NCBI GenBank assembly: GCA_020350725.1
Contig: CP070719.1
Location: forward strand, 854,883 to 899,008
DNA: 44,126 nucleotides
Direction of reading: 5' to 3'
DNA from: a bacterium
GTDB lineage: Bacteria; BMS3Abin14
The notes beneath the pieces are model-generated. The model was not told the DNA's origin and did not search any database. It saw only the letters and a program-made list of their open reading frames with translations. Positions within the stretch are counted from its first letter, which is position 1, and the number at the start of each line of letters is the position of its first letter. The position numbers were made by a program, and so were the translations under genes. Shown one piece after another: positions 8,123-21,100 of this stretch.

Positions 8123-9958
8123 TCAACCGGCGATGTCTGCCTGGGATTCCGCCGGTGTGTCCTTCTCAATGGCCGATCCCGTTGCCGGAAGGGTGATGAC
8201 AAAAATCGCCCCTTGGCCGGGTTCACCCTCCACCCGGATATCCCCACCGTGGTCCTTGATGATGCCGAAGGTTACCGCCAGTCCGAGGCCGGTTCCTTTA
8301 CCCGCTGCCTTGGTTGTAAAGAACGGCTCGAAGATCTTTTCCCTTTCTTCCGGTGGAATACCCGGCCCTGTGTCCTTGATCCGTATCTCGACGGTGTCCT
8401 GCTCCACCAGGTCGGTCGCCACTGTAACGGTGCCCGGCTTTCCGTCCATTGCCTGCTGGGCGTTGATGAGAAGGTTCATAAAGACCTGGATGAGCTGGTT
8501 GGCGTCTCCGCTGATCTCAGGCAGGTCCTGGCGCAATGTTTTTTCGACACCTATCTCATGGATCCCCAACTGGTGGTCGGCGAGGACCAGGGAATCCTCC
8601 AGGACGTCATTGATGCTGAGGGAGACCAGCTGCGGCTGGTCCTGCCGTGCGAACTTCATGAGGTTTTCGATGATGGCGTTACACCGGCGGGTCTCCTTTT
8701 CGATGATCGTCAGATTCTTGTACAAGGAGTTGTTCTGCTCCAGTTTTTTCAGAGAGAGTTGGGCGTAGCCAAGGATCCCTGCCAGCGGGTTCTTGACTTC
8801 ATGGGCTATCCCCGCACTCAGTTGGCCGAAGGCCGACATCTTCTCCGACTGGATAAGGGCGGCCTGGGTTTCCGCCAGGGTTTTCTCCCTCTCCCGCAGT
8901 TCAACGGCCATTCTGTTGACCGACCCCGTGAGGCTCCCGATCTCGTCGTGGGATGCCGGGTTGAGCTGGATGTCAAAGTGACCTCGACCGACGTCCCGGG
9001 TGGCCTCTGACAGCTCTTCCAGGGGCCGGGTGATGCGTCGGGACCAGAAGAGGCTGGCGGCCGCAGCGCCCAGGAGGATCACCAGGGAGACGCCGAGGAG
9101 GCTCATGAAGATGGATCTCGCTGTGAGGTAGGCCGTCTTCAGGGGAATCCGCATTCCGACCACGAGGTCGCCGATCTCCACCGGTGAGAAGCTCCCGATC
9201 ATATCGGTGCCGTCAATGACGTATTCATGCGTTGTGTCCAATTTCGATTGTTCCGCCAGGAGGGCCTCGCCCGGAATCCATCCGGTGGAGTCCCCGGAGA
9301 GGACCTGCTCCGGATCCCTGTGGACCAGGAGGCTTCCTCCCGGTTCTGCGATGAACGCCTCCAACACCTCTGATTGGCCCATGATAGCCATGAGGCCGTC
9401 CATGCGTACCAGGGCCTCGAGGATGACCCCGGTTTCCCGTCCGGGGACCGGGACGGCGGTGGCTATGGTCATGAGGGGGAGTTCCGCCAGGAAGGTGGAG
9501 TTCCGGATGTGAATCACACCGGGCCGGAGGGTTGATGAGGGAATGGGATGTTGGGCCCGATAAGCGTCCAGTTCGGCCCGGGTGGTCCCGGCTTCCGTCA
9601 GCGTCAATTCCTCGATAATCGAGGCCTGTTCCCGACCGCCCTCGTAGAAAATGACGGCCACCATCTCGGGATAATCGGTGAAAAGCTGGTCGAACATCCT
9701 TGATTTTTCATCCTGGGTCAACCCGCCGTCATAGGCGACTCTGGTAAAGGTCTTTATCGAGTCAAGGTAATTCTGGATCATCGTTTTTACTTCCGCTGCC
9801 GTGTGGCGGGTGTTGGTCGAGATAAAATCTTTGATGTAAGCCGTTTTGTCAGCGTGGAAGAGGTTGGCCATGGTGTAGGTGATGGCGCCCACCACGACGG
9901 TAACCAGCAGGAGGAAGGAGAACAGGATCTTAAACCTGAGGGAAATAAAGATCTTCAT
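8123..9958 (-). CDS. Membrane sensor histidine kinase (sensor-TM-HAMP-HisKA-HATPase)
   Basis: This 611-residue inner-membrane kinase has TM1 at about residues 10-30, a periplasmic sensor region of about 250 residues (Cache-like, unassigned ligand), TM2 at about 283-304 and HAMP at about 305-358. The dimerisation domain carries phospho-acceptor His386 in SAGIAHEVKNPL. The ATPase domain has an N box near NLLINAQQA, a G1 box DTGPGIP and a G2 box GTGLGL. Its start is 6 bases after the stop of the FecR-domain gene, so the two form an operon. No receiver domain is attached. The nearest candidate partner is the response regulator-GGDEF protein encoded divergently at 11571. That partnership is inference. 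Confidence 0.95.
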   Translation of the reverse strand: MKIFISLRFKILFSFLLLVTVVVGAITYTMANLFHADKTAYIKDFISTNTRHTAAEVKTMIQNYLDSIKTFTRVAYDGGLTQDEKSRMFDQLFTDYPEMVAVIFYEGGREQASIIEELTLTEAGTTRAELDAYRAQHPIPSSTLRPGVIHIRNSTFLAELPLMTIATAVPVPGRETGVILEALVRMDGLMAIMGQSEVLEAFIAEPGGSLLVHRDPEQVLSGDSTGWIPGEALLAEQSKLDTTHEYVIDGTDMIGSFSPVEIGDLVVGMRIPLKTAYLTARSIFMSLLGVSLVILLGAAAASLFWSRRITRPLEELSEATRDVGRGHFDIQLNPASHDEIGSLTGSVNRMAVELREREKTLAETQAALIQSEKMSAFGQLSAGIAHEVKNPLAGILGYAQLSLKKLEQNNSLYKNLTIIEKETRRCNAIIENLMKFARQDQPQLVSLSINDVLEDSLVLADHQLGIHEIGVEKTLRQDLPEISGDANQLIQVFMNLLINAQQAMDGKPGTVTVATDLVEQDTVEIRIKDTGPGIPPEEREKIFEPFFTTKAAGKGTGLGLAVTFGIIKDHGGDIRVEGEPGQGAIFVITLPATGSAIEKDTPAESQADIAG

Positions 9959-9964
9959 ACTATC

Positions 9965-11269
9965 TCAGAACTCCGCGTCGACTATCTGTGAAAAATACGT
10001 CACGTTCCCGACTTTGTCCACCGCTTCCACGACAATGATGTTGGACCCGGGCTTAAGGGGAACGCTGTGGATGAAATCACCGTGTTCGTTGATCGTTGCC
10101 TGGAGGCCGCTGACGAAGACCCTGGCCCCGGGTTCAGTGGTTCCCGTGAGCTTCAACACATCGCTCCCCACCGGGCCTTCCGGATAATGGACCTGCAAAA
10201 CCGGGGGGTCGAGATCCTGGACGAGTTTAAAGTGCCCTACCGCGCTGAATCTGTCACCCCAGTCGCTGGTCGCGGAACTGACCCGCCAGAAGTAATCCCC
10301 CGCTTTCAGGTTGCCGTGGGAAAACCGGTTGTCCCTGATGGTATCATCGTATACCACACTGTCGAACTCGGGATCCCTTGACAAAGCAAAACGGTACTGA
10401 GAGATTCCCTGGGGCCCCACCCAGGCGAAGGAAACCGTGGGCGAAATGTCCCTGAAGAGAAAGATCGTCCCCTCCTCCGGCGAGGTAAGCACCGGCGACC
10501 CGGGCGGTTTGGAGAGGTAAACGGGTGATTGTCCCGGTTGGATCTTGACGATCTGATTGGGGCCCACTTCCATGGATCCCTCTTCCAGCACGAGGTCCGC
10601 CGAACCCTCGAGCACGGTCAGGACGGACGAATCGTCCTGCCTGACGGCCATCTGAAACCGGGCCGACTGGCCCATTTTCCCGCGGGACGGGACCCTGGCC
10701 ACGGCACCCGGAGCCACGACCTCGAGGTTGAACGATTCCTTTACCCCTTTTTTTACCCCTCCTGTCAGCTGACCGCCCATGAGGACAACGACGGTCCTGT
10801 TTTCCCGGAGAAAGATGTCCCGGTCGAGCTTTCTCAGGACGACCAGGGAATTCTCGCCCAGTTCCAGGAAGTGATCCCCCGTAAATGAGAGTGTTGCGCC
10901 ACTCCTGTCGAATGTCTGAATGGCATCCCTGTTATAGAGGAGCATCCCCTCCGAGGCGTTCGTCCATGCGATCTGGGCGGCGCGTTTGGATTTTACGGAT
11001 CGTTCCTTTCTGGTGAGGACGGCGGTAGCCCTTTTCCCCTGGCCGTCTTCACCGGCCGTGGTGACCAGGCGGAGTTCCCGGGACCCCGTCCCCCCATCGG
11101 TGGGATCCCGGGATCCCTCGCTCCGTATGACAAGGTCAAAGAGACTCTGTCCCGAGGGAAAGATGCTGTTGAGGGTCAGAGCGATAACCAGGAAGGCGAG
11201 GAGAATCAGCGCCAGCACGAGGAGCGCTTCGATGACATTTTTACCCGCGGCCTGGAAGGAGAGCTTCAT
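9965..11269 (-). CDS. Membrane-anchored FecR-domain protein with Ig-like C-terminus
   Basis: This 434-residue protein has a single N-terminal TM (about 14-34) that places the rest in the periplasm. Residues about 115-250 match a FecR domain (GDHFLELGENSLVVLRKL, then VVLMGGQLTGG and VLEGSADLVLEEG). About 255-350 is fibronectin-like, with WRVSSATSDWGD. About 355-430 is a bacterial Ig-like repeat (LTGTTEPGARVFVSG...). FecR domains outside iron uptake often occur in envelope proteins with peptidoglycan or surface roles. The start at 11269 has a GGAG site. It is the first gene of a two-gene operon with the sensor kinase and may feed envelope signals to it. Confidence 0.85.
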   Translation of the reverse strand: MKLSFQAAGKNVIEALLVLALILLAFLVIALTLNSIFPSGQSLFDLVIRSEGSRDPTDGGTGSRELRLVTTAGEDGQGKRATAVLTRKERSVKSKRAAQIAWTNASEGMLLYNRDAIQTFDRSGATLSFTGDHFLELGENSLVVLRKLDRDIFLRENRTVVVLMGGQLTGGVKKGVKESFNLEVVAPGAVARVPSRGKMGQSARFQMAVRQDDSSVLTVLEGSADLVLEEGSMEVGPNQIVKIQPGQSPVYLSKPPGSPVLTSPEEGTIFLFRDISPTVSFAWVGPQGISQYRFALSRDPEFDSVVYDDTIRDNRFSHGNLKAGDYFWRVSSATSDWGDRFSAVGHFKLVQDLDPPVLQVHYPEGPVGSDVLKLTGTTEPGARVFVSGLQATINEHGDFIHSVPLKPGSNIIVVEAVDKVGNVTYFSQIVDAEF

Positions 11270-11570
11270 GCTGGACTCCGTGACACGGTAAACATCCTGT
11301 CCGGCAAATTACAAATATGAAATATACTAGCACAGGTTTTTCCGTTTTTAAACCAGGGTTTTGGCCAGGCTGTTCACCACGATCGCCGGATCGGGGCACG
11401 GGATCAAGCCTGCCCGGAAGGGAAAAAGGGGTCCGACCGGAAGGACCCACCGGGAGCCCAGGGAGTTGCCTTGGGTGCAAAAAGAGGCTAATAAGGGGTA
11501 CGGTCGAACCGCACGGAGACCCGGTCCGAAAGCGGCAGACTGTGACCAAGTCGGTGCCCGAGGAGGTTCC
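11270..11570. other. Divergent promoter region and structured leader of the GGDEF regulator
   Basis: This 301-base stretch separates the FecR gene (minus) from the response regulator (plus). It has an AT-rich part (about 11300-11345) with a TATACT hexamer at 11323-11328 that could be a -10 element. A GC-rich leader with small hairpins follows (GGGTCC/GGACCC at about 11428-11447, and CCCAGG/CCTTGGG near 11457-11475). I could not match the leader to a known riboswitch class. The plus frame is open from 11361, but it lacks a coding character and a ribosome binding site. Confidence 0.4.
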
Positions 11571-12524
11571 ATGGTGAAGCACGGTATCAGGATTCTTATA
11601 GCCGACGATGAGCAGATCATCAGAGATCTTCTCACGGAACACCTGACTGAAGAGGGATTTGACGTTGTGGCTGTCCCCAGCGGCGAGGAGGCCCTGGAAA
11701 CGTTCAGGGCGGACCCGGACTGTCTGGTGGTCACCGACATCAGGATGGGCGGGATGAGCGGGGTTAAGCTGCTGGAGGAGATCAAGAAGCTCGACCCCGA
11801 GGCCCAGGTTGTCATGATCACCAGTCACGCCTCCCTTGACACGGCCGTGGCCACGCTTCGCGCCGGAGCATACGATTACATCTTCAAACCCTTCGATAAC
11901 CTTGACCAGATCACCGAAGTGATCAGTCGTGCCGTGGACAAGATCCATCTGATCCGTCAGAACCGCCAGCTGATCGAGAACCTCGAGGCCAGCAACCTGA
12001 TGATGGAGCGGGCCAACGAGGCGCTCCGGGAGCTGGCCGTTCGGGACGGTCTGACGGGACTTTTCAATTTTCGCCATTTCAAGGATGTCCTTTACGAGGA
12101 GTTGGCCAGGGCTTCCCGATATGAGAGGGAGCTGTGCCTGCTGATGCTGGATGTGGACAACTTCAAGATTTACAACGATACCCACGGACACCCGGCGGGT
12201 GATGAGGTGCTCAAGACCGTGGCGGATATCCTCACCAGGCGCCTTCGCGACGTGGATCGCTCGGCCCGGTATGGAGGGGAGGAGTTCCTGGTCCTCCTGC
12301 CGGAGACGACCCGGGAGAAGGGGACAACCGTTGCCGAGGACCTCCGGGTTCAGATCGAGGATTACCCTTTCATGGGCCGGGAGTCCCAGCCTATGGGGAA
12401 GGTCACCGTCAGCCTCGGCGTGGCGGCATTTCCCGCCGACGGCACGGATGTCGAAACGTTGATCAAGGCAGTGGACGGCGCCCTCTACAGGGCGAAGAAC
12501 AGCGGGCGCAACCGGGTAGCCTGA
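11571..12524 (+). CDS. Response regulator with diguanylate cyclase (GGDEF) output
   Basis: This 317-residue cytoplasmic protein has a receiver domain (residues about 6-120) with acidic pocket ADDE, phospho-acceptor Asp in VVTDIRMGG (about residue 56) and Lys in FKPF (about 106). A coiled linker (about 120-155) leads to a GGDEF domain that starts at RDGLTGLFNFRHF. The signature is RYGGEEF, an active form, and an RxxD inhibitory site (RDVD) lies five residues before it, so product feedback by c-di-GMP is expected. ATG 11571 was chosen over the upstream open frame because AGGAGG lies at 11561-11566. It is divergent from the FecR/kinase operon and immediately precedes the sigma-54-type surface-protein locus, so it may set c-di-GMP for surface attachment. 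Confidence 0.95.
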   Translation: MVKHGIRILIADDEQIIRDLLTEHLTEEGFDVVAVPSGEEALETFRADPDCLVVTDIRMGGMSGVKLLEEIKKLDPEAQVVMITSHASLDTAVATLRAGAYDYIFKPFDNLDQITEVISRAVDKIHLIRQNRQLIENLEASNLMMERANEALRELAVRDGLTGLFNFRHFKDVLYEELARASRYERELCLLMLDVDNFKIYNDTHGHPAGDEVLKTVADILTRRLRDVDRSARYGGEEFLVLLPETTREKGTTVAEDLRVQIEDYPFMGRESQPMGKVTVSLGVAAFPADGTDVETLIKAVDGALYRAKNSGRNRVA

Positions 12525-12879: not shown

Positions 12880-15800
12880 GTGAAACGGGCAGGACAGGTC
12901 AATTCCGGGCAGGATCGTGTCCCCGCCGGGGGCACAGGATGGCTGTGGGGCCTTCTCCCCCTCCTGGCCCTGGTCAGCCTGATGCCGGGTGAGGCCGGGG
13001 CCTGCACCGTCACCAACACAGCCGATGCGGGTGGTGGCTCCCTGCGGGCTTGCATCCTTTTCGCCAACGCCAATCCGGGGGACACCATCGCCTTCGACAT
13101 CCCCGATACGGACCCGGGGTATGTGACCTCGGGCGGCGACTCCTGGTGGCGGATCAGCCCATTCAGTCCCCTGCCGGTGATCACGGCCCCCGAAACCGTT
13201 CTGGACGGCCTGACCCAGACGACCAACCGTGGTGATACGAACAGCCGCGGACCGGAGATCGAGATAAACGGGACCGGGGCGGGCATCACGGACGGAGTGG
13301 TTCTGACAGGGGGAAACAGCACGATCAGGAACCTTGCCATCAATCGGTTCGGCGACGACGGCATCGTTCTGAGCACTGCGGACGGCAACGTCGTGGAAGG
13401 ATGTTACATCGGTCTCGACCCCACGGGGACGGTCGACCTGGGCAACGTCGACCACGGTATCATCGTCCGGGACGGATCCGACAACAACACCATCGGGGGG
13501 CCCGGAACCGGTAACGTGATCTCCGGCAACGGTGACCGGGGCATCCGCCTCCTGTCCACAAGCGGAAACGTCGTCCAGGGCAACCTCATCGGCACCGATC
13601 CCTCGGGGACGGCCGACCTCGGCAACAGCGCATGGGGCGTTCATCTGGAGGGCGCCTTCGGGAATGTCATCGGGGGTCAGAACCCAGGTGAGGGGAACCT
13701 TATCGCCTTCAACACCTCCGATGGCCTGTTCGTCACCGGCCTGGGATCGAACCAGAACCTGATCTCCGGAAATACCTTCTTCTCCAACGAAGGACTGGGC
13801 ATCGACCTGGCTCCCGACGGAGTGGGAGCCGGTCCCGGCGCCAACAACGGTAAGACGGCCCCCGTTTTCACCGGCCTGGCGAATTCGGGGCCGGATCTCG
13901 CCGTCACGACGATCGCGGGGCCGGGCGATGTCATCGAGTTCTTCCGGGTGGAAAACGCCGTCGCTCCGGCGGTGGGAGAGGACCCGACCGGATCCGGAGA
14001 GGGGTACCTCTATCTGGGCGCCTGCGTGGACAACGGAGGGTGTTCGGGACCGCACATGGTCTCGGCGGCCGACGGGGACGTCTCAGTCGGCACGGTCACC
14101 GCGACCCTGTCCGGAACTGTCCTGACGGGAAGTGACCACCTGTCCGCTACGGCCACCGACCCTTCCAACAACACCTCCGAGTTCGCGGCCAACAACGTCG
14201 TCGTGTCCCCCTGCCCGACGGTGGTCTTCACCGGTGATCTCGGGCTCGGTTCCCTTCGCGAATGTATCAATTACGCCAACGCCAACCCGGGGACGACCAT
14301 CAGCTTCGATATTCCCGATACCAGCCCGAATTACGTCACATCGGGCGCCGACTCCTGGTGGCGGATCAGCCCCGGCAGTAATCTGCCGGCGATAACGGCG
14401 CCCGGCACCGTCATCGACGGTTCGACGCAGACGGCCAATCGGGGTAACACCAACAGCCTCGGTCCCGAGATCGAGATCGACGGATCCGGGGCGGGAATCG
14501 GAGTCGACGGGCTGGTGATCGGTAACCCCGGTGAGAACAGCGCGGTCCGCGGGCTTGCGGTGGGAAACTTCAGCCGGAGCGGGATCTCTCTGTTGGTGGG
14601 GGGCAACCTCATCGCCGGTAACTACATCGGCCTTGAACCGGACGGTACGACACTGGCCGGCAACAACACGTCCGCCACCGCCCTGCAGGGAGGCATCCGC
14701 ATCCAGTCAGCCGGGAACACCGTCGGCGGTGCTGCATCCAGTGACCGCAACGTCATCTCCGGCAATATTCTCGCCGGCATCGTGATCACAGGCGGTGCCA
14801 CCGGCAATCAGGTCATCGGAAACTACATCGGCCTGGACTCGGGGGGAACCCTGGACAGGGGCAACATCAATGACGGTGAGGGCATCGAGATCGAACTCGC
14901 CAACGGCAACACCATCGGGGGCACCTTGATCGGGGAACGGAACGTCATCTCGGGGAACGAAAGCGACGGCATCGAGATCGACGGTGCCGACCTCAATGTG
15001 GTTCAGGGCAACTTCATCGGCACCGACTACACCGGCACCGTGCTGATCCCCAACGACCGTGACGGCATCGACATCAACGCCAACGGGGCCGATGGAGCGA
15101 CGGGCAACACCGTCGGGGGGACCTCTGCCGGGGCGGGAAACCTGATCCGTGGAAACGCCCTCAACGGAGTCCAGTTGCGGGATGAACTTGTCCCTGGAAG
15201 CACCACCAACAATTCCATTCTTGGTAACAGCATCTACGATAACGGCCAGCTGGGCATCGACCTGGAACCCGACGGCGTCGCGGTCAATGACCCAGGCGAT
15301 GGGGATACGGGCCCGAACGGTCTTCAGAATTACCCCATCCTCAGCTCCGTGGTCACCAACGGTGTCTCCACCACCATTTCCGGCACTCTCAGCAGCACGC
15401 CCAACACAACCTTCCGGCTGGAATTCTTCGCGAGCACTGCCCCCGATCCCCTGGGTTACGGCGAGGGACAGTCGTTCCTGGGGACCGCCGTCGTTACCAC
15501 CGACGGAGTCGGCGAGGCGGCCTTTTCCGTGAACCTGCCCACCCCTGTCGCGGCGGGGGCATACGTCTCGGCCACGGCCACCGACCCGGCGGGAAGCACC
15601 TCGGAGTTCGCCTCCAACCTCATGACTCCCCTCGTCCTTGTGAAACAGGCTTTTCTGGCATCGGATGGGTCGCCCCTGTCCAACAGCAGCACTCTGCCCA
15701 GGGGATCGGTCATTAGGTTTCTCATCTTCATCGACAACGGCGGACCCGTGCGCAACGATGTCAGTGTCCAGGATGTCCTCGATCCCGCTTTCGCCTATTC

Positions 15801-16026
15801 CGCCGGATCCCTCAGGGTGGACAACAACGCCCCTGGGGGCGCCTCCGTGGGTGATATTTACGCCTCGGTCAGCGCGGCGGCGTCCCTGACCGACACCATC
15901 GACGCCGATGTCGCCAGTATCACCGGGAGCACCATCAACGTGGGCAACCGGTTCGTGTCCAACGGCCAGCTGGACATAGCGGCCAACAGGGTCTGGGCCC
16001 TGCTGTTTACGGTGACGATGAGATGA
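12880..16026 (+). CDS. Secreted double beta-helix protein with C-terminal DUF11-like domain
   Basis: This 1048-residue protein has a long signal peptide ending near residue 41 (GEAGA|CTV). Two tandem copies of a CSLREA-type beta-helix follow, about 42-440 and 444-915. Each opens with GSLR(A/E)C...FANANPG or the near-equivalent YANANPG, then shares WWRISP, LDGLTQT/IDGSTQT and GPEIEI blocks. Repeated GNxIGG/NVISGN/NYIGLD-like coils follow, as expected for right-handed parallel beta-helices. Residues about 919-1048 form a DUF11-like domain (RFLIFIDNGG...NDVSVQDVLDPAFAYSAGS) that closely matches the next gene product. The start is GTG with AGGAGG at 12862-12867. The expected location is extracellular or cell surface; the role may be adhesin or filament tip. 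No catalytic residues are evident. Confidence 0.9.
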   Translation: MKRAGQVNSGQDRVPAGGTGWLWGLLPLLALVSLMPGEAGACTVTNTADAGGGSLRACILFANANPGDTIAFDIPDTDPGYVTSGGDSWWRISPFSPLPVITAPETVLDGLTQTTNRGDTNSRGPEIEINGTGAGITDGVVLTGGNSTIRNLAINRFGDDGIVLSTADGNVVEGCYIGLDPTGTVDLGNVDHGIIVRDGSDNNTIGGPGTGNVISGNGDRGIRLLSTSGNVVQGNLIGTDPSGTADLGNSAWGVHLEGAFGNVIGGQNPGEGNLIAFNTSDGLFVTGLGSNQNLISGNTFFSNEGLGIDLAPDGVGAGPGANNGKTAPVFTGLANSGPDLAVTTIAGPGDVIEFFRVENAVAPAVGEDPTGSGEGYLYLGACVDNGGCSGPHMVSAADGDVSVGTVTATLSGTVLTGSDHLSATATDPSNNTSEFAANNVVVSPCPTVVFTGDLGLGSLRECINYANANPGTTISFDIPDTSPNYVTSGADSWWRISPGSNLPAITAPGTVIDGSTQTANRGNTNSLGPEIEIDGSGAGIGVDGLVIGNPGENSAVRGLAVGNFSRSGISLLVGGNLIAGNYIGLEPDGTTLAGNNTSATALQGGIRIQSAGNTVGGAASSDRNVISGNILAGIVITGGATGNQVIGNYIGLDSGGTLDRGNINDGEGIEIELANGNTIGGTLIGERNVISGNESDGIEIDGADLNVVQGNFIGTDYTGTVLIPNDRDGIDINANGADGATGNTVGGTSAGAGNLIRGNALNGVQLRDELVPGSTTNNSILGNSIYDNGQLGIDLEPDGVAVNDPGDGDTGPNGLQNYPILSSVVTNGVSTTISGTLSSTPNTTFRLEFFASTAPDPLGYGEGQSFLGTAVVTTDGVGEAAFSVNLPTPVAAGAYVSATATDPAGSTSEFASNLMTPLVLVKQAFLASDGSPLSNSSTLPRGSVIRFLIFIDNGGPVRNDVSVQDVLDPAFAYSAGSLRVDNNAPGGASVGDIYASVSAAASLTDTIDADVASITGSTINVGNRFVSNGQLDIAANRVWALLFTVTMR

Positions 16027-16721
16027 TGCAGACCGCCTTTCCCCTCCTTCCTCCTTCTCCGCGGCGCCATGCCGGACATCCCACGGGCACGCAATGTTGT
16101 TAGTTTTATCAGTAAAATTTTCATAATAGTCCCATTCCACGGCATACTCCACAGCGGTCCAAAAAATTCTCTTTTTAAAATAGCAAGTTACATTTTTAGC
16201 GTTTTTATCGATCCGGCACAAAAGTTGCACTTTTGTAACTGTCGTGTGAAGTTCGGCAATTTCACAGGAGATGGTCTCTGTTCAGTGCCATGTCCTGAAA
16301 GAGATGCGAGGTGTGAGATCAAGACGGGGTGTCGAAAAGAGCGCACGCGGCGGGATAGCCTCCGCCGCCGAGAATCTGTTTCCGTATTTACCTTCGGTTC
16401 TTCCGGCCGGGTACCGGATCTCTGTACCCTTCGCACACTTCCGAACCAACGTCACGCCCCGGACAAGGAGTGTTCTGGTGTCCGGCCGGTCTCTTTTACC
16501 CTATCGACCGTCGGGAACAGGCGGTCCTCAACGACATGCCGGCCCCGGCGGGTCGGTATCGGAATGAAAGGAGGTGCCAGCCGAGGTAGCGTAAACCCGT
16601 TTCACACCCACATGGAATTGCCGAAAGCGGCGGCGCCGGTCCGCGCCGGCGCCGCCCGAACACGGGAGTTATCGGACAAGCAGCAGAATGGGAAAGAAAA
16701 GAACGGAAAAGGAGAATCAGG
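16027..16721 (+). other. Intergenic control region and long leader before the small DUF11 gene
   Basis: This 695-base spacer starts with an AT-rich block (about 16090-16240) unlike its GC-rich surroundings. The block holds a -24/-12 promoter at 16213-16229 and a possible IHF-like site (ATCA...TT) near 16107-16121. If that promoter is used, the transcript has a leader of roughly 480 nt. A perfect 11-bp GC hairpin (16629-16639 with 16646-16656) lies 65 bases before the gene without a T run, so it is not a standard terminator. I see no convincing open reading frame in the leader. Confidence 0.5.
16213..16229 (+). promoter_or_regulatory. Second sigma-54 (-24/-12) promoter
   Basis: GGCAC (16215-16219) and TTGCA (16225-16229) have GG and GC exactly 10 bases apart. 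The consensus is missed at 16214 (C for T) and 16220 (A for G). The -12 half is also part of an imperfect inverted repeat AGTTGCA...TGTAACT. The site lies in an AT-rich block and points toward the DUF11 genes at 16722 onward. Confidence 0.65.
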
Positions 16722-17306
16722 ATGAAAGGCAAAGATCGCAGAAACGGAATCGGGAACAGGATAGCTGTAACGGTGGCGGCCTGTGTGGCTTTCGCCCTTC
16801 TTATGGCTGTCCCCGCAATGGCTGCTGACAATCAGGGTTTCGGTGACATCGCCGGTGACGGTGACAGCCTGACCAACTCGAACATCTTCAGCCTGTTTAC
16901 CACCACCATGTCCCTTAACAAAATGGCTTTTCTTGCCAACGGGACGCAGTTGACCTCAGGTTCCACCCTGGCTCGCGGAACCGAGGTCCGGTTCGTCATC
17001 TACATCGACAACACGACGAACTTCCCCCTCAACGACGTAAGTGTCCGGGACGTTCTGGACTCGGCTTTCGCCTACCAGGCCGGTTCCATGAAGGTCGACG
17101 ACACCATCGCCTCGGGGGCAACTGAGGCTGTTATCTACAGCACGGTCAACGCTGTGGCCACCACTCTGTCCGATGTTGTGGACGCCGATGTGGCCAGCGC
17201 AGTGGGCGTAACCATCGAGGTTGGCGATCAGAATGTGGCCAACGGGCAGCTTGATGTTCCGGCCAACAGTGTTTGGGCGGTCCTGTTCAGGGTCCTGATG
17301 CAGTAA
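16722..17306 (+). CDS. Small secreted DUF11-like domain protein
   Basis: This 194-residue product has a clear signal peptide (residues 1-34, ending PAMA|ADN), a short Gly/Asp/Ser linker, and one DUF11-like beta domain (about 66-194). The core EVRFVIYIDN...NDVSVRDVLDSAFAYQAGSMKVD, the VDADVAS block, and the ending ANSVWAVLFRVLMQ align along the whole length with the last 130 residues of the preceding 1048-residue protein. The ribosome binding site AAGGAG lies 8 bases before ATG. It looks like a detached structural module, perhaps a fibre subunit or surface coat protein. There are no cysteines in the mature part. Function is not established for this family. Confidence 0.88.
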   Translation: MKGKDRRNGIGNRIAVTVAACVAFALLMAVPAMAADNQGFGDIAGDGDSLTNSNIFSLFTTTMSLNKMAFLANGTQLTSGSTLARGTEVRFVIYIDNTTNFPLNDVSVRDVLDSAFAYQAGSMKVDDTIASGATEAVIYSTVNAVATTLSDVVDADVASAVGVTIEVGDQNVANGQLDVPANSVWAVLFRVLMQ

Positions 17307-17555
17307 GCGGACGGCTGGATCGGTGGTCACAGGAGCTTAACCGGGTTCAGTGTACCTGAACTGAACCAGGTGAGAGGCCATGACTTATTGCGTTCACCCT
17401 TCGGGGAATACAGCATATATGCGCCGCAGGCGGGCGCCTGACGGTCTTCTGCCGGTGGATAGTCCGAGGGCGGATCGGAGGTGCGCCGCACCGGAGTGGT
17501 CCCAAAACGTGCCGTTCCCGGCGCGACCCGCTCCGGACTTCGAAGAGGGGGCGGT

Positions 17556-18161
17556 GTGTTGACCGGTGCCCTGAGATATCTCCGCTCCGCGGTGGTGGGC
17601 CTGCTGTTGATTGCTGCAGCGGCCCCGTCGGCCGTCGCGGCCACCAACGCCGCGACAGGCGGTATCGGGGGGATCGACAACGGTACCCTGCACGGAGGTG
17701 ACGGGACGGGTCCGGCTCAGATCACCCTGAACGTGACCGGCTTGGCCCTCGTGAAGCAGGCCAGGGACGTGGCGGGAAACCTCCTGCCGGAAAATGCCAA
17801 TGTCGTCTCCGGACAGGAGATCTATTTTGTTCTCTTCGTCGACAATCCAAGCCCATACTCCGCAGATGATCTGCGCATAACGGACCAGCTGAACGAGACG
17901 GAATTCACCTATCTCGCCGGCAGCCTGGAGCTGACCGTCGTACCGGCAGGATCCGGCGATGGGGCCATATGGTCCGGCACCTGGAATTCGTTATCGGACA
18001 CACAGGGCGGTCCGGACGACGGTGCCTCCATCCTGGATACGGGTGGTCCCGTCGACAGGGACCGGCTGACCGTGGGGGCCGTTCCCGGACAGACCAACCA
18101 GGCGGTGGATATACCGGCAGACTCCCTGCTGGCGGTCCGGTTCAGGGTAAGGGTGAACTAG
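17556..18161 (+). CDS. Second small secreted DUF11-like domain protein
   Basis: The product is 201 residues when started at GTG 17556. That start gives a normal signal peptide (MLTGALRYLRSAVVGLLL..., ending SAVA|ATN) and has an AGAGGGGG site; the open frame itself reaches back to 17481. The mature N-terminus is Gly/Thr-rich (NAATGGIGG...). A DUF11-like domain follows from about residue 68, with EIYFVLFVDNPSPYSADDLRITDQL and a TYLAGSLEL block. An Asp/Gly-rich insertion precedes the ending ADSLLAVRFRVRVN. The stop is 1 base before the start of the 1835-residue gene, so the two are one transcript. The 249-base spacer before it carries a GGTTCAG/CTGAACC hairpin (17344-17367) and no gene. Confidence 0.85.
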   Translation: MLTGALRYLRSAVVGLLLIAAAAPSAVAATNAATGGIGGIDNGTLHGGDGTGPAQITLNVTGLALVKQARDVAGNLLPENANVVSGQEIYFVLFVDNPSPYSADDLRITDQLNETEFTYLAGSLELTVVPAGSGDGAIWSGTWNSLSDTQGGPDDGASILDTGGPVDRDRLTVGAVPGQTNQAVDIPADSLLAVRFRVRVN

Positions 18162-18162
18162 G

Positions 18163-21100
18163 ATGGGCGGGCTGCGCATCCATAGAAAGGAATGCGGACG
18201 CCGGCCTGTCTCGGGGCGGGAGAGGCGAAGACTCCTGGCCGGGACGAAGACAGGGGCCAGGGCATTTTGGAGGATCATCCTGTCGGCCGCGTTGGTCGCC
18301 TGCCTGGCTGGGCCTTCCTACGCCATCGAAAACACAGCGAGCGGTTCAGTGGGGGCAAGTATCCTTGATACCGGCAGCTCAACCGTGGTCCTCAATCTCG
18401 TGGGCGAAGCCGTTGACCCGGCGCTCTCGAGGGTGACGGTGGATCCGAACAATGTGACCGCTGACGGCACCTCCCTGAGCACGATCACGGTCGTACTCAG
18501 GGACGCCGACAGTCAGCCCGTCCCCGGGAGAACGGTGATCCTTTCCTCGGACAGGGGCGGCCTGGATGTCATTGCTCAGCCGCTGTCCCCCAGCGATGAG
18601 ACGGGAACCGTGACGGGAACGATCCGGTCGGGCACGGTGGGGGTATCGACCATAACCGCCACCGAGACGACGATCGGCGTGGTGCTCAACGACCGTCCGC
18701 AGGTTTTCTTCACCCAGGGCTTCGTTCTGGATCTCATGAAATCGGCCGACAGGAAGCAGGAAACCGTGGGGGGCGTCGTCACCTACACCGTGGAGATCAG
18801 AAATCTGACGGCCGGCGACGTCGGCCAGGTCCGGATCGATGATGTCATTCCTCCCAACTTCAAGTACGTCAGGGGAAGCGCAAGGCTGAACGGAGCCCTG
18901 CTGGCCGATCCCTCCGGTAACAGGCCCGTGACCTTCTTTATCGAAACCGTGCCCGCCCTCGTCGACGCCAACGGCAACGGCCGGGCGGACCCCGGTGAAC
19001 AGGGTTACGCAGCCCTGAGTTACCAGCTGGTCATCGGTTCCGGGTCGAGGCCCGGTGATTACACCAATACGGCCGTCGCCTGGGACGTGAACCCGCAGTT
19101 TCCCATATCCAACAGATCAGAATCCACGGTGACCGTGGCCATGGATCCTCTTTTCGACCTGGGCACCATCATCGGAAAGGTGTTCGAGGACAGGGACGGT
19201 GACGGATGGCAGGACGAGGGGGAGGGGGGGATCGCCGATGCCACGGTGGTCCTGGACGACGGCACCCGGGTCGTCACCGACGAATACGGACGCTACCACA
19301 TACCAGCCGTCCGGCCGGGCCACAGGATGGTCAAGATCGACCGGCAGAGCCTGCCGGCCGGGGCCGGTATCGTGGGCGAAGACTCCGGGATCGTCTCCGT
19401 GACCCCAGGCCTGCTGGCAAAGGTCAATTTCCGGGTGACGCAGGCACAGGATATTGAATCGGTCGGTAGCCCCCCCGGTATGGGCCTGCTCGTGGAAAGT
19501 CGGGATTCCGTTGAGCCGGTCAAGGTCCACGGCAGCGTCGGTATGCTCCAGGCCCTGGTCAATGGAGTGAATGCAGACCTTCCCGGCGGTGACGTCGTCC
19601 TGGGGATGCAGGAAGTCACCGAGATGGTGAATATTGCCGGCGGGGATCTCCAGGGACCCCTCCGGTTCCGCACCCGGTTGGATCCCAGGGATAACGTGAA
19701 GGAGTGGAAGCTCACGGTGACCGACTCCGAGGGAATGGTGGTGAAAGCGCTGGGCGGACTGGAGACGGTTCCGGAACAGATCATCTGGTCGGGTATCACC
19801 GGGGACGGGGACCTCATAGGGGGCGGCAGGATCTACCGCTACCGGATGGAGGTCTGGTACCGTGATGGAGGCTACTGCACCAGCGCCGTGCGGACCTTCG
19901 GAGTCAATCAGAGGAGTTTCATCTCCCTGAATCTGAGCGGATCAGGATTTGACCTGGGGTCCGCCACCCTGCACGGCCGGACGGAGGAGGTGCTGGCCGA
20001 TGTGGCAAGGACCCTGCGGGAGCACCCCAATGAGGCGATCATCATCGAGGGTCATACGGATTCCGAGGGCACCGAGGAGGTCAACCTGAGACTCTCCAGG
20101 CAAAGGGCCGAGGCGGCCCTCGATTATCTGGTCGAGGTCCAGGGTCTGTCGCCCGAACGGTTCGTCCTGAAATGGTACGGAGAGTCAAGACCTGCGGCCA
20201 GCAATGAGATCCCGGAAGGGCGGGAGATCAACCGCCGTGTGGAGATCAAGGGACAGCTCCTCGAGGTCAATATGTCCCAGCTCCTGGACCAGTATCGGAC
20301 CCAGCCGAAGGTGTTCATCGACGGCTCGCCCGTGGACGTGGGCGAGGACGGCCGGTTCCAGACCAGCGTGGGGGAGGTGGGTCAGGAGGGACTCAGGATC
20401 AACATGGTCAGCGCCGCCGGTGCCGTGACCGAGGGGAAGATCCCCATACCCGATCTCGAGATCCTCGACCCAAGGGGGGAAATCCGCCTGGGGTACGGTG
20501 AGACGGGGGAAGCCTACCGGGTCGGGGATCCCGGACCGGACGGGATGTGGGAAGCGGGCGAGCGGGCCCTGACGTACAGGCTCAAGGGAAGGACCGATCC
20601 CGTCAACACCGTGATGGTCGACGATGAAACTCTCAGCGTGGACGAGGGGGGAGTTTTTACGGCCGATCTCGCCCTTGCTGCGGGTGAGGTCAACACGTTC
20701 GGCCTCGTCGTGAGGAACCCCGCGGGCTATATCCGTATCGCCAGATTGGCGGTCCGGGTGACCGACAGCGAGGAGGATGGAACGCTTGTCGTCGTGAGGG
20801 ATCCGGTTCCCAACCTCTCGGTCCAGCTTCCTCCGGAGGGGGCCGCTCTTTTCAACTCCCGTCTGACGGTGAACGGTTACACCGATCGGGGTAACGAGGT
20901 GCGGGTGAACGGTCGTGGGGTCACGGTGATGGAGGATGGGGGCTTCACCGTTGAGGTCGATCTGACGGAGGGGGAGAATCAGCTTCGGATCCAGGCCTTG
21001 GACCCCGACGGGCACATCGGCGAGGTCCAGAGGACCGTGACCCTCTCGAAGGAACGCCTGTTCTTCATGGCCTTCGCCGACGGCAAGATCGGACAGCTCC

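Follow-up and report, generated by a model that had tools for sequence, protein, structure and literature searches.

Truncated DUF11-like domains at the C-termini of neighbouring surface proteins: a probable adhesin domain split across gene boundaries

Within 44,126 nucleotides of the genome of a bacterium of the BMS3Abin14 lineage (GenBank assembly GCA_020350725.1, contig CP070719.1, positions 854,883 to 899,008; this whole stretch is referred to as the window, and positions are counted within it), we investigated an operon of four forward-strand genes for surface proteins, three of which have products with similar C-terminal endings. The first product, the 'tip' protein P0001 (12880..16026), is a secreted beta-helix protein of 1048 amino acids (aa; Pfam Beta_helix, 3.7e-10), whose C-terminal domain (15628..16023, with Lys922 and Asp965) is homologous to P0002. 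P0002 (16722..17306), adaptor 1 with 194 aa, is composed of a signal peptide, an N-terminal segment proposed to be a donor hairpin (16824..16910; ADNQGFGDIAGDGDSLTNSNIFSLFTTTM, with Asn37) and a C-terminal domain (16908..17303, Lys67 and Asp110). P0003 (17481..18161), adaptor 2, counts 226 aa from the GTG codon at 17481 or 201 aa from the GTG at ~17556, and likewise has a proposed donor hairpin (17640..17741; ATNAATGGIGGIDNGTLHGGDGTGPAQITLNVTG, Asn56) ahead of its C-terminal domain (17739..18158, Lys92 and Asp135). The 1835-aa P0004 (18163..23670) is the putative outer-membrane anchor: matches to Pfam and NCBIfam reveal Big_1/Invasin_D3, an intact DUF11 (18721..19146; Lys193, Asp227, Asn302; Pfam DUF11 8.4e-07), SdrD_B, OmpA and Glucodextran_B domains, followed by a large C-terminal beta-barrel in the AlphaFold2 (AF2) model, and a third proposed donor hairpin (IENTASGSVGASILDTGSSTVVLNLVG, Asn57; 18325..18405) is located at its mature N-terminus. 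The C-terminal domains of P0001 to P0003 are termed acceptors below, and P0004 and its homologues are termed outer-membrane proteins (OMPs).

The endings ANRVWALLFTVTMR (15982-16023), ANSVWAVLFRVLMQ (17262-17303) and ADSLLAVRFRVRVN (18117-18158) are all found directly before the stop codons of P0001, P0002 and P0003, and are preceded by DIAAN, DVPAN and DIPAD, respectively, in agreement with the (I/V)xA(N/D) lead described in the original prediction. There, the endings had been understood as a terminal strand shared by otherwise different proteins, which holds for the beta-helical N-terminal part of P0001, but not for the last ~140 residues, which are homologous. In BLASTP, P0002 matched the final 141 residues of P0001 with 53% identity (2e-39 over 144 residues) and P0003 with 28% identity over 156 residues (1e-12); the similarity of the three endings is thus far above chance because the entire C-terminal domain is homologous. 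Just three copies of this domain were found in the genome of the window. Since the last 14 domain columns, with 2.48 bits versus 2.44 for the rest (rank 62 of 149 alignment windows), are not better conserved, the proposal that the terminal strand is a sorting signal standing on its own has to be given up: what is shared is a homologous domain, of which this strand is the last. In our reading of the sequences, all three endings mark the point where one homologous C-terminal domain of ~140 residues, a diverged relative of DUF11/CLIPPER, comes to its end.

The nearest known domain, DUF11, has recently been given the name CLIPPER and folds into a CnaA-like sandwich that contains a Lys-Asn bond with an Asp close to it, the Asn lying a short way ahead of the last strand; the crystal structure 9IFR displays a Lys715-Asn806 isopeptide with Asp748 and nine strands, beta9 being the last (PMC12617251). 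Among 39 intact domains extracted here, the Lys is present in 35, the Asp in 33 and the Asn in 36. Intact domains do not end with the strand that corresponds to the three endings, but go on with a hairpin of the type G-x-x-x-N-T-A ... S-T-V-T-V, as can be seen within P0004 itself, where the terminal hairpin of the internal DUF11 (19060-19146) comes after that strand. P0001, P0002 and P0003 stop ahead of this hairpin, and no terminal hairpin with Asn follows the core in the same chain. The objection that the strand could simply be the last core strand of every DUF11 domain is therefore correct in so far as internal copies possess an equivalent strand, but there a further hairpin comes after it, whereas the terminal copies end before. 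Acceptor Lys and Asp are each kept in all but one chain (including two chains with the Lys just outside the aligned block, added after inspection), while the Asn is absent from the C-terminal part of the acceptor chains. As P0002 and P0003 lie in one frame, their read-through was folded by AF2 with stops replaced by Gly, the natural spacer as linker and an alignment of 23 rows, purely as a modelling device; both cores reached a predicted local distance difference test score (pLDDT) of ~85-95, and the endings form the last core strands. Foldseek searches against PDB returned Ig-like adhesin and isopeptide-pilin folds (PrgB, AspA, BspA, RspB, CNA) as best matches, global TM-scores being low because a read-through of two domains served as query; a PDB sequence search with the domain gave only the collagen adhesin 1amx (E=0.34).

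Scanning contigs with a three-sequence alignment of the domain yielded 13 loci in Gammaproteobacteria, other Proteobacteria and Nitrospirota, most of them uncultured. In all counts given here, related sequences are non-independent events. Wherever enough flank was available, the operon begins with a tip or a protein resembling one, continues with one or two adaptors (190-290 aa) and closes with an OMP homologue of ~1,800-2,000 aa. The position at which the domain stops is exact: 35 aligned domains from 14 genomes terminate within one residue of each other, and ~12 distant chains from these genomes extend 0-3 residues past the domain. A second class sample provided four further genomes, none of which had been used in forming the idea and for which counts were taken from printed sequences; the same operon recurs in genomes added later, and all nine chains of these four genomes terminate 0-1 residue past the domain. 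Other contigs of the original genomes encode more proteins with the terminal domain (five in one genome, G151), whose N-terminal parts are unrelated and comprise beta-helix, SdrD_B/DUF11 stalks, CBM96, DUF2341 and YCF48-like modules. The expectation of a set of exported proteins with the same ending, confined to genomes with the OMP, was borne out: OMP genomes carry such a set, and in a class sample of 270 genomes the domain occurred in three, all of them with a close OMP. The fourth sampled genome with a close barrel (G414) is devoid of split domains; instead, a single open reading frame (ORF) of 5,529 aa (locus L146, 615-17201) starts with a CSLREA-type beta-helix and finishes in a close homologue of the window's OMP, and this chain, to go by its sequence, is a fused tip-anchor version.

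The hairpin absent from the acceptors may have its counterpart at the other end of the following protein. Adaptors and OMPs share a segment of the form xxNxATG ... vTV directly after the signal peptide, in which the Asn is the most conserved position (42/43; 8/9 donors in the later-found genomes), while tips have no such segment and the OMP has no C-terminal acceptor. A complete set of Lys and Asp in protein n and Asn in protein n+1 was found in 32 of 34 adjacent gene pairs, the partner being taken from gene order (30 pairs scored automatically and two in which the aligned block narrowly misses a Lys that the printed sequence shows); exceptions were an adaptor without Asn at locus L044 and a 200-aa acceptor at L047, which has lost both Lys and Asp. 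The register fits as well: where intact DUF11 domains follow each other in tandem, an Asn lies 30-37 residues (median 34.5, n=14) ahead of the following Lys, and in adaptors the distance from the N-terminal Asn to their own Lys is 28-36 residues (median 30, n=27), so that adaptors begin where a chain would begin if a tandem array were severed immediately before the hairpin. In the tip at L121, an intact DUF11 with its hairpin leads directly into the terminal truncated copy, and in the OMP at L039 the orphan segment at the start is directly followed by an intact DUF11. A second class of acceptors (class 2, the small adaptors being class 1) comes from the same small phylum (L030, L034, L078, L079), where proteins of ~330-460 aa with a terminal truncated canonical DUF11 are encoded directly upstream of the OMP. 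These acceptors end in ..DLVFDVTITGP, ..TVEYDAVIQ and ..NLTYDVTIP, and the downstream OMPs begin with (V)PAGTVITNTA..; when scored with a hairpin profile for which independent intact domains were used, 8/9 class-2 N-termini outscore at least 97% of their own shuffles, and judged by this profile the orphan N-terminus of class 2 is plainly DUF11-like.

Taken together, position, register, the conserved Asn, the absent hairpin, gene order and the class-2 proteins make up the case for a split domain, whereas the covalent bond is predicted on the basis of the residues present. We consider it likely, though well short of certain, that the three domains are of the CnaA/CLIPPER (DUF11) type, lack their last beta-hairpin and are completed in trans by the next protein, probably with a Lys-Asn isopeptide bond. 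The N-terminal segment of adaptors and OMP would represent the hairpin that the domain of the subunit before it lacks, and in this way protein n+1 would supply the donor that completes the acceptor of protein n. Since tips have no segment and the OMP has no C-terminal acceptor, each donor is matched by exactly one acceptor only when donation runs from n+1 to n. A chain in gene order would result, with P0001 as tip, completed by P0002, which in turn would be completed by P0003 and the latter by the anchor P0004. In a further step, Lys and Asp of the acceptor and Asn of the donor could form an autocatalytic intermolecular isopeptide bond, as happens within one chain in CLIPPER, and the adhesin subunits would thereby be linked covalently into a chain on the outer membrane, with no homologue of sortase, chaperone or usher encoded in the operon; different tips sharing the C-terminal domain could compete for one anchor. 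Regarding the common recognition step that the original prediction had deduced from the endings, a shared assembly step is very probable, but what is recognised would be an incomplete domain, and its partner most likely is the N-terminus of the next protein.

Several observations weigh against this proposal. The acceptor domain remains below the Pfam cut-off for DUF11 (PF01345; 15.2 bits for P0002 and 14.8 for P0003 versus 24.6, the P0001 C-terminus giving no match), and TIGR01451 in NCBIfam scores 23.5 for P0002 at a cut-off of 24; moreover, ~9 additional residues are found between acceptor Lys and Asp. By itself, the homology of the ~30-residue class-1 adaptor segment to the DUF11 hairpin is not significant: with the hairpin profile, this segment beats its shuffles weakly (area under the curve 0.62, p=0.004 with related sequences treated as independent), pairwise hairpin alignments give mean z-scores of 0.4 (adaptors) and 0.9 (OMPs), and profile-profile comparison of the donor segments with the intact hairpin (hhalign) produced no significant alignment. 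When a C-terminal domain was concatenated with the N-terminus of the following protein, the Pfam DUF11 score was no higher than for the C-terminal domain alone. Signal-peptide sites were judged by eye. In the AF2 model of P0002-linker-P0003 the donor is not confidently placed (predicted TM-score 0.42, with only 6 rows spanning both proteins). With the OMP at L144 added to the L044 donor and the L047 acceptor, the triad is incomplete at three junctions, and the bond therefore cannot be universal.

Three other explanations were considered. Adaptor chains hold both donor and acceptor and thus have the same residues at hand in cis, so the adaptor's N-terminal hairpin could complete its own C-terminal domain by circular permutation, giving monomeric Ig domains in operon proteins that meet in some other way. 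We regard this as unlikely, as it fails to explain tips, which have an acceptor and no donor, and OMPs, with a donor and no C-terminal acceptor. In an Ig domain, a long distance separates the two poles, yet the hairpin continues into strand A almost without a linker, in the manner of successive tandem domains, and in class-2 proteins ~190 more residues separate hairpin and domain. Both N-terminal segments have a pLDDT below 50 in the AF2 read-through model, which argues mildly against folding in cis without proving the model in trans. That the domains are ordinary DUF11-type stalk modules, C-terminal by happenstance and without any special assembly step, appears more doubtful still: DUF11 domains are common stalk modules (PMC12617251) and the terminal strand is conserved no more than the rest, but the stop is identical in every relative found, the hairpin is absent there and present in internal copies, and neither the conserved operon order nor the Asn-bearing N-terminus of adaptors and OMPs would be expected.

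A C-terminal Ig-like domain common to diverse exported proteins, and only in genomes with the OMP, could also bring to mind a sorting domain similar to those of the type IX secretion system (T9SS), in which the giant barrel would act as translocon recognising a cargo signal. The C-terminal 879 residues of P0004 (21031-23667) are modelled by AF2 with ~34 long strands at a pLDDT mostly of 70-87, which comes close to SprA in size, and the best Foldseek E-values are indeed those of SprA (1.2e-07); however, the TM-scores for SprA are just 0.23-0.24, with a root-mean-square deviation above 30, and numerous unrelated large barrels are matched as well, while comparison of the barrel with PDB sequences gave nothing meaningful. 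On the strength of the model, this C-terminus is a 'very large barrel', and we claim no more. Neither T9SS families (Por_Secre_tail, gliding-motility C-terminal domain) nor other sorting tails in Pfam and NCBIfam matched at E<=1, and the Asn of the donor segment as well as the single-chain fusion of tip and barrel would be left unexplained. A type IX-like role of the domain is therefore improbable in our opinion, although the barrel might also export the chain, which would be compatible with completion of the domain in trans.

Some further features of the window and its genome should be mentioned. The window's own genome contains a second, distant OMP, a 2097-aa ORF with an orphan DUF11-like N-terminus (locus L031, 7123-13413; C1:1407122-1413412), with no evident upstream partner in the stretch read, the frame being partly masked. 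Upstream of the operon, a FecR-like protein (9965-11269, reverse strand) carries a C-terminal Glucodextran_B domain as in the OMP, and a 449-aa ORF resembling it is located near the adaptors at L047. Both a HAMP histidine kinase (8123-9958, reverse strand) and a response regulator with GGDEF domain (11361-12524, forward strand) adjoin the operon, making a link between cyclic di-GMP and adhesion possible. A cspA thermoregulator RNA was detected at 1698-2047 on the forward strand (84.7 bits, gathering threshold 78). The gap of 695 bases between P0001 and P0002 (16027-16721) is A+T-rich at ~16090-16240 and contains a 218-aa ORF, which looks spurious; a search for an RNA switch in this gap found no RNA family.

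In the open-access literature searched, we found no description of such a split domain. If the proposal is true, diderm bacteria would have a simple means of stringing several surface proteins together in gene order, namely an adhesin domain divided between neighbouring genes, with a covalent lock as a further possibility; orphan 'AGTxITNTA' N-termini of DUF11-bearing outer-membrane proteins would gain a testable meaning, and partner proteins could be predicted from sequence alone. Compared to DUF11/CLIPPER proper (PF01345, 9IFR), the acceptors have in common the Lys at strand 1, the Asp in 'vxDvLD' and an ending that corresponds to the strand before the last hairpin, and Foldseek suggests a CnaA-like fold class for them too; they differ in that the hairpin with the bond-forming Asn lies outside the chain, presumably at the N-terminus of the next protein, in scoring below the Pfam cut-off and in the longer Lys-Asp spacing. 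In F-ENA anchors, DUF11 domains occur only as stretches inside the anchor protein. Sortase or PEP-CTERM anchoring, with C-terminal motif, hydrophobic helix and basic tail, does not apply, as the chains finish in a beta-strand and gave no NCBIfam match. With type IX C-terminal domains and SprA, the system shares an Ig-like domain at the end of the cargo and a very large barrel, but no family match was obtained.

Chaperone-usher and type V pili resemble the proposed chain in mechanism, since incomplete Ig domains are completed there by a strand, either N-terminal or exchanged, and genes follow a tip-to-base logic; here, however, a donor of two strands, a short heteromeric chain and a covalent lock are predicted, and no usher or PapD-like chaperone matched among the four operon proteins (Pfam, NCBIfam) or six neighbours (Pfam), the rest of the genome being outside this search. 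In the archaeal thread filament of Saci_0406, each subunit is completed by the N-terminal donor strand of the following one and an intermolecular isopeptide has been reported, comparable to the bond predicted here; in contrast, the thread is a homopolymer of a different family without outer-membrane anchor, in which the alpha-amino group of the N-terminal Asp is bonded to an Asn two subunits away (PMC9715654). Whether the whole amounts to a natural modular tag/catcher system, with CLIPPER domains split between neighbouring genes, intermolecular Lys-Asn bonds, tip-adaptor-adaptor-anchor chains, interchangeable tips and a giant barrel, operating in diderms without sortase, chaperone or usher, is in our judgement evenly balanced. 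The engineered pairs SpyTag/SpyCatcher and DogTag/DogCatcher likewise are split isopeptide domains joined in trans, as we propose here, whereas the present system is natural, encoded by neighbouring genes and probably of the CnaA-type fold, with a bond that is predicted; it would then represent a natural counterpart of SpyTag/SpyCatcher and a source of new orthogonal pairs.

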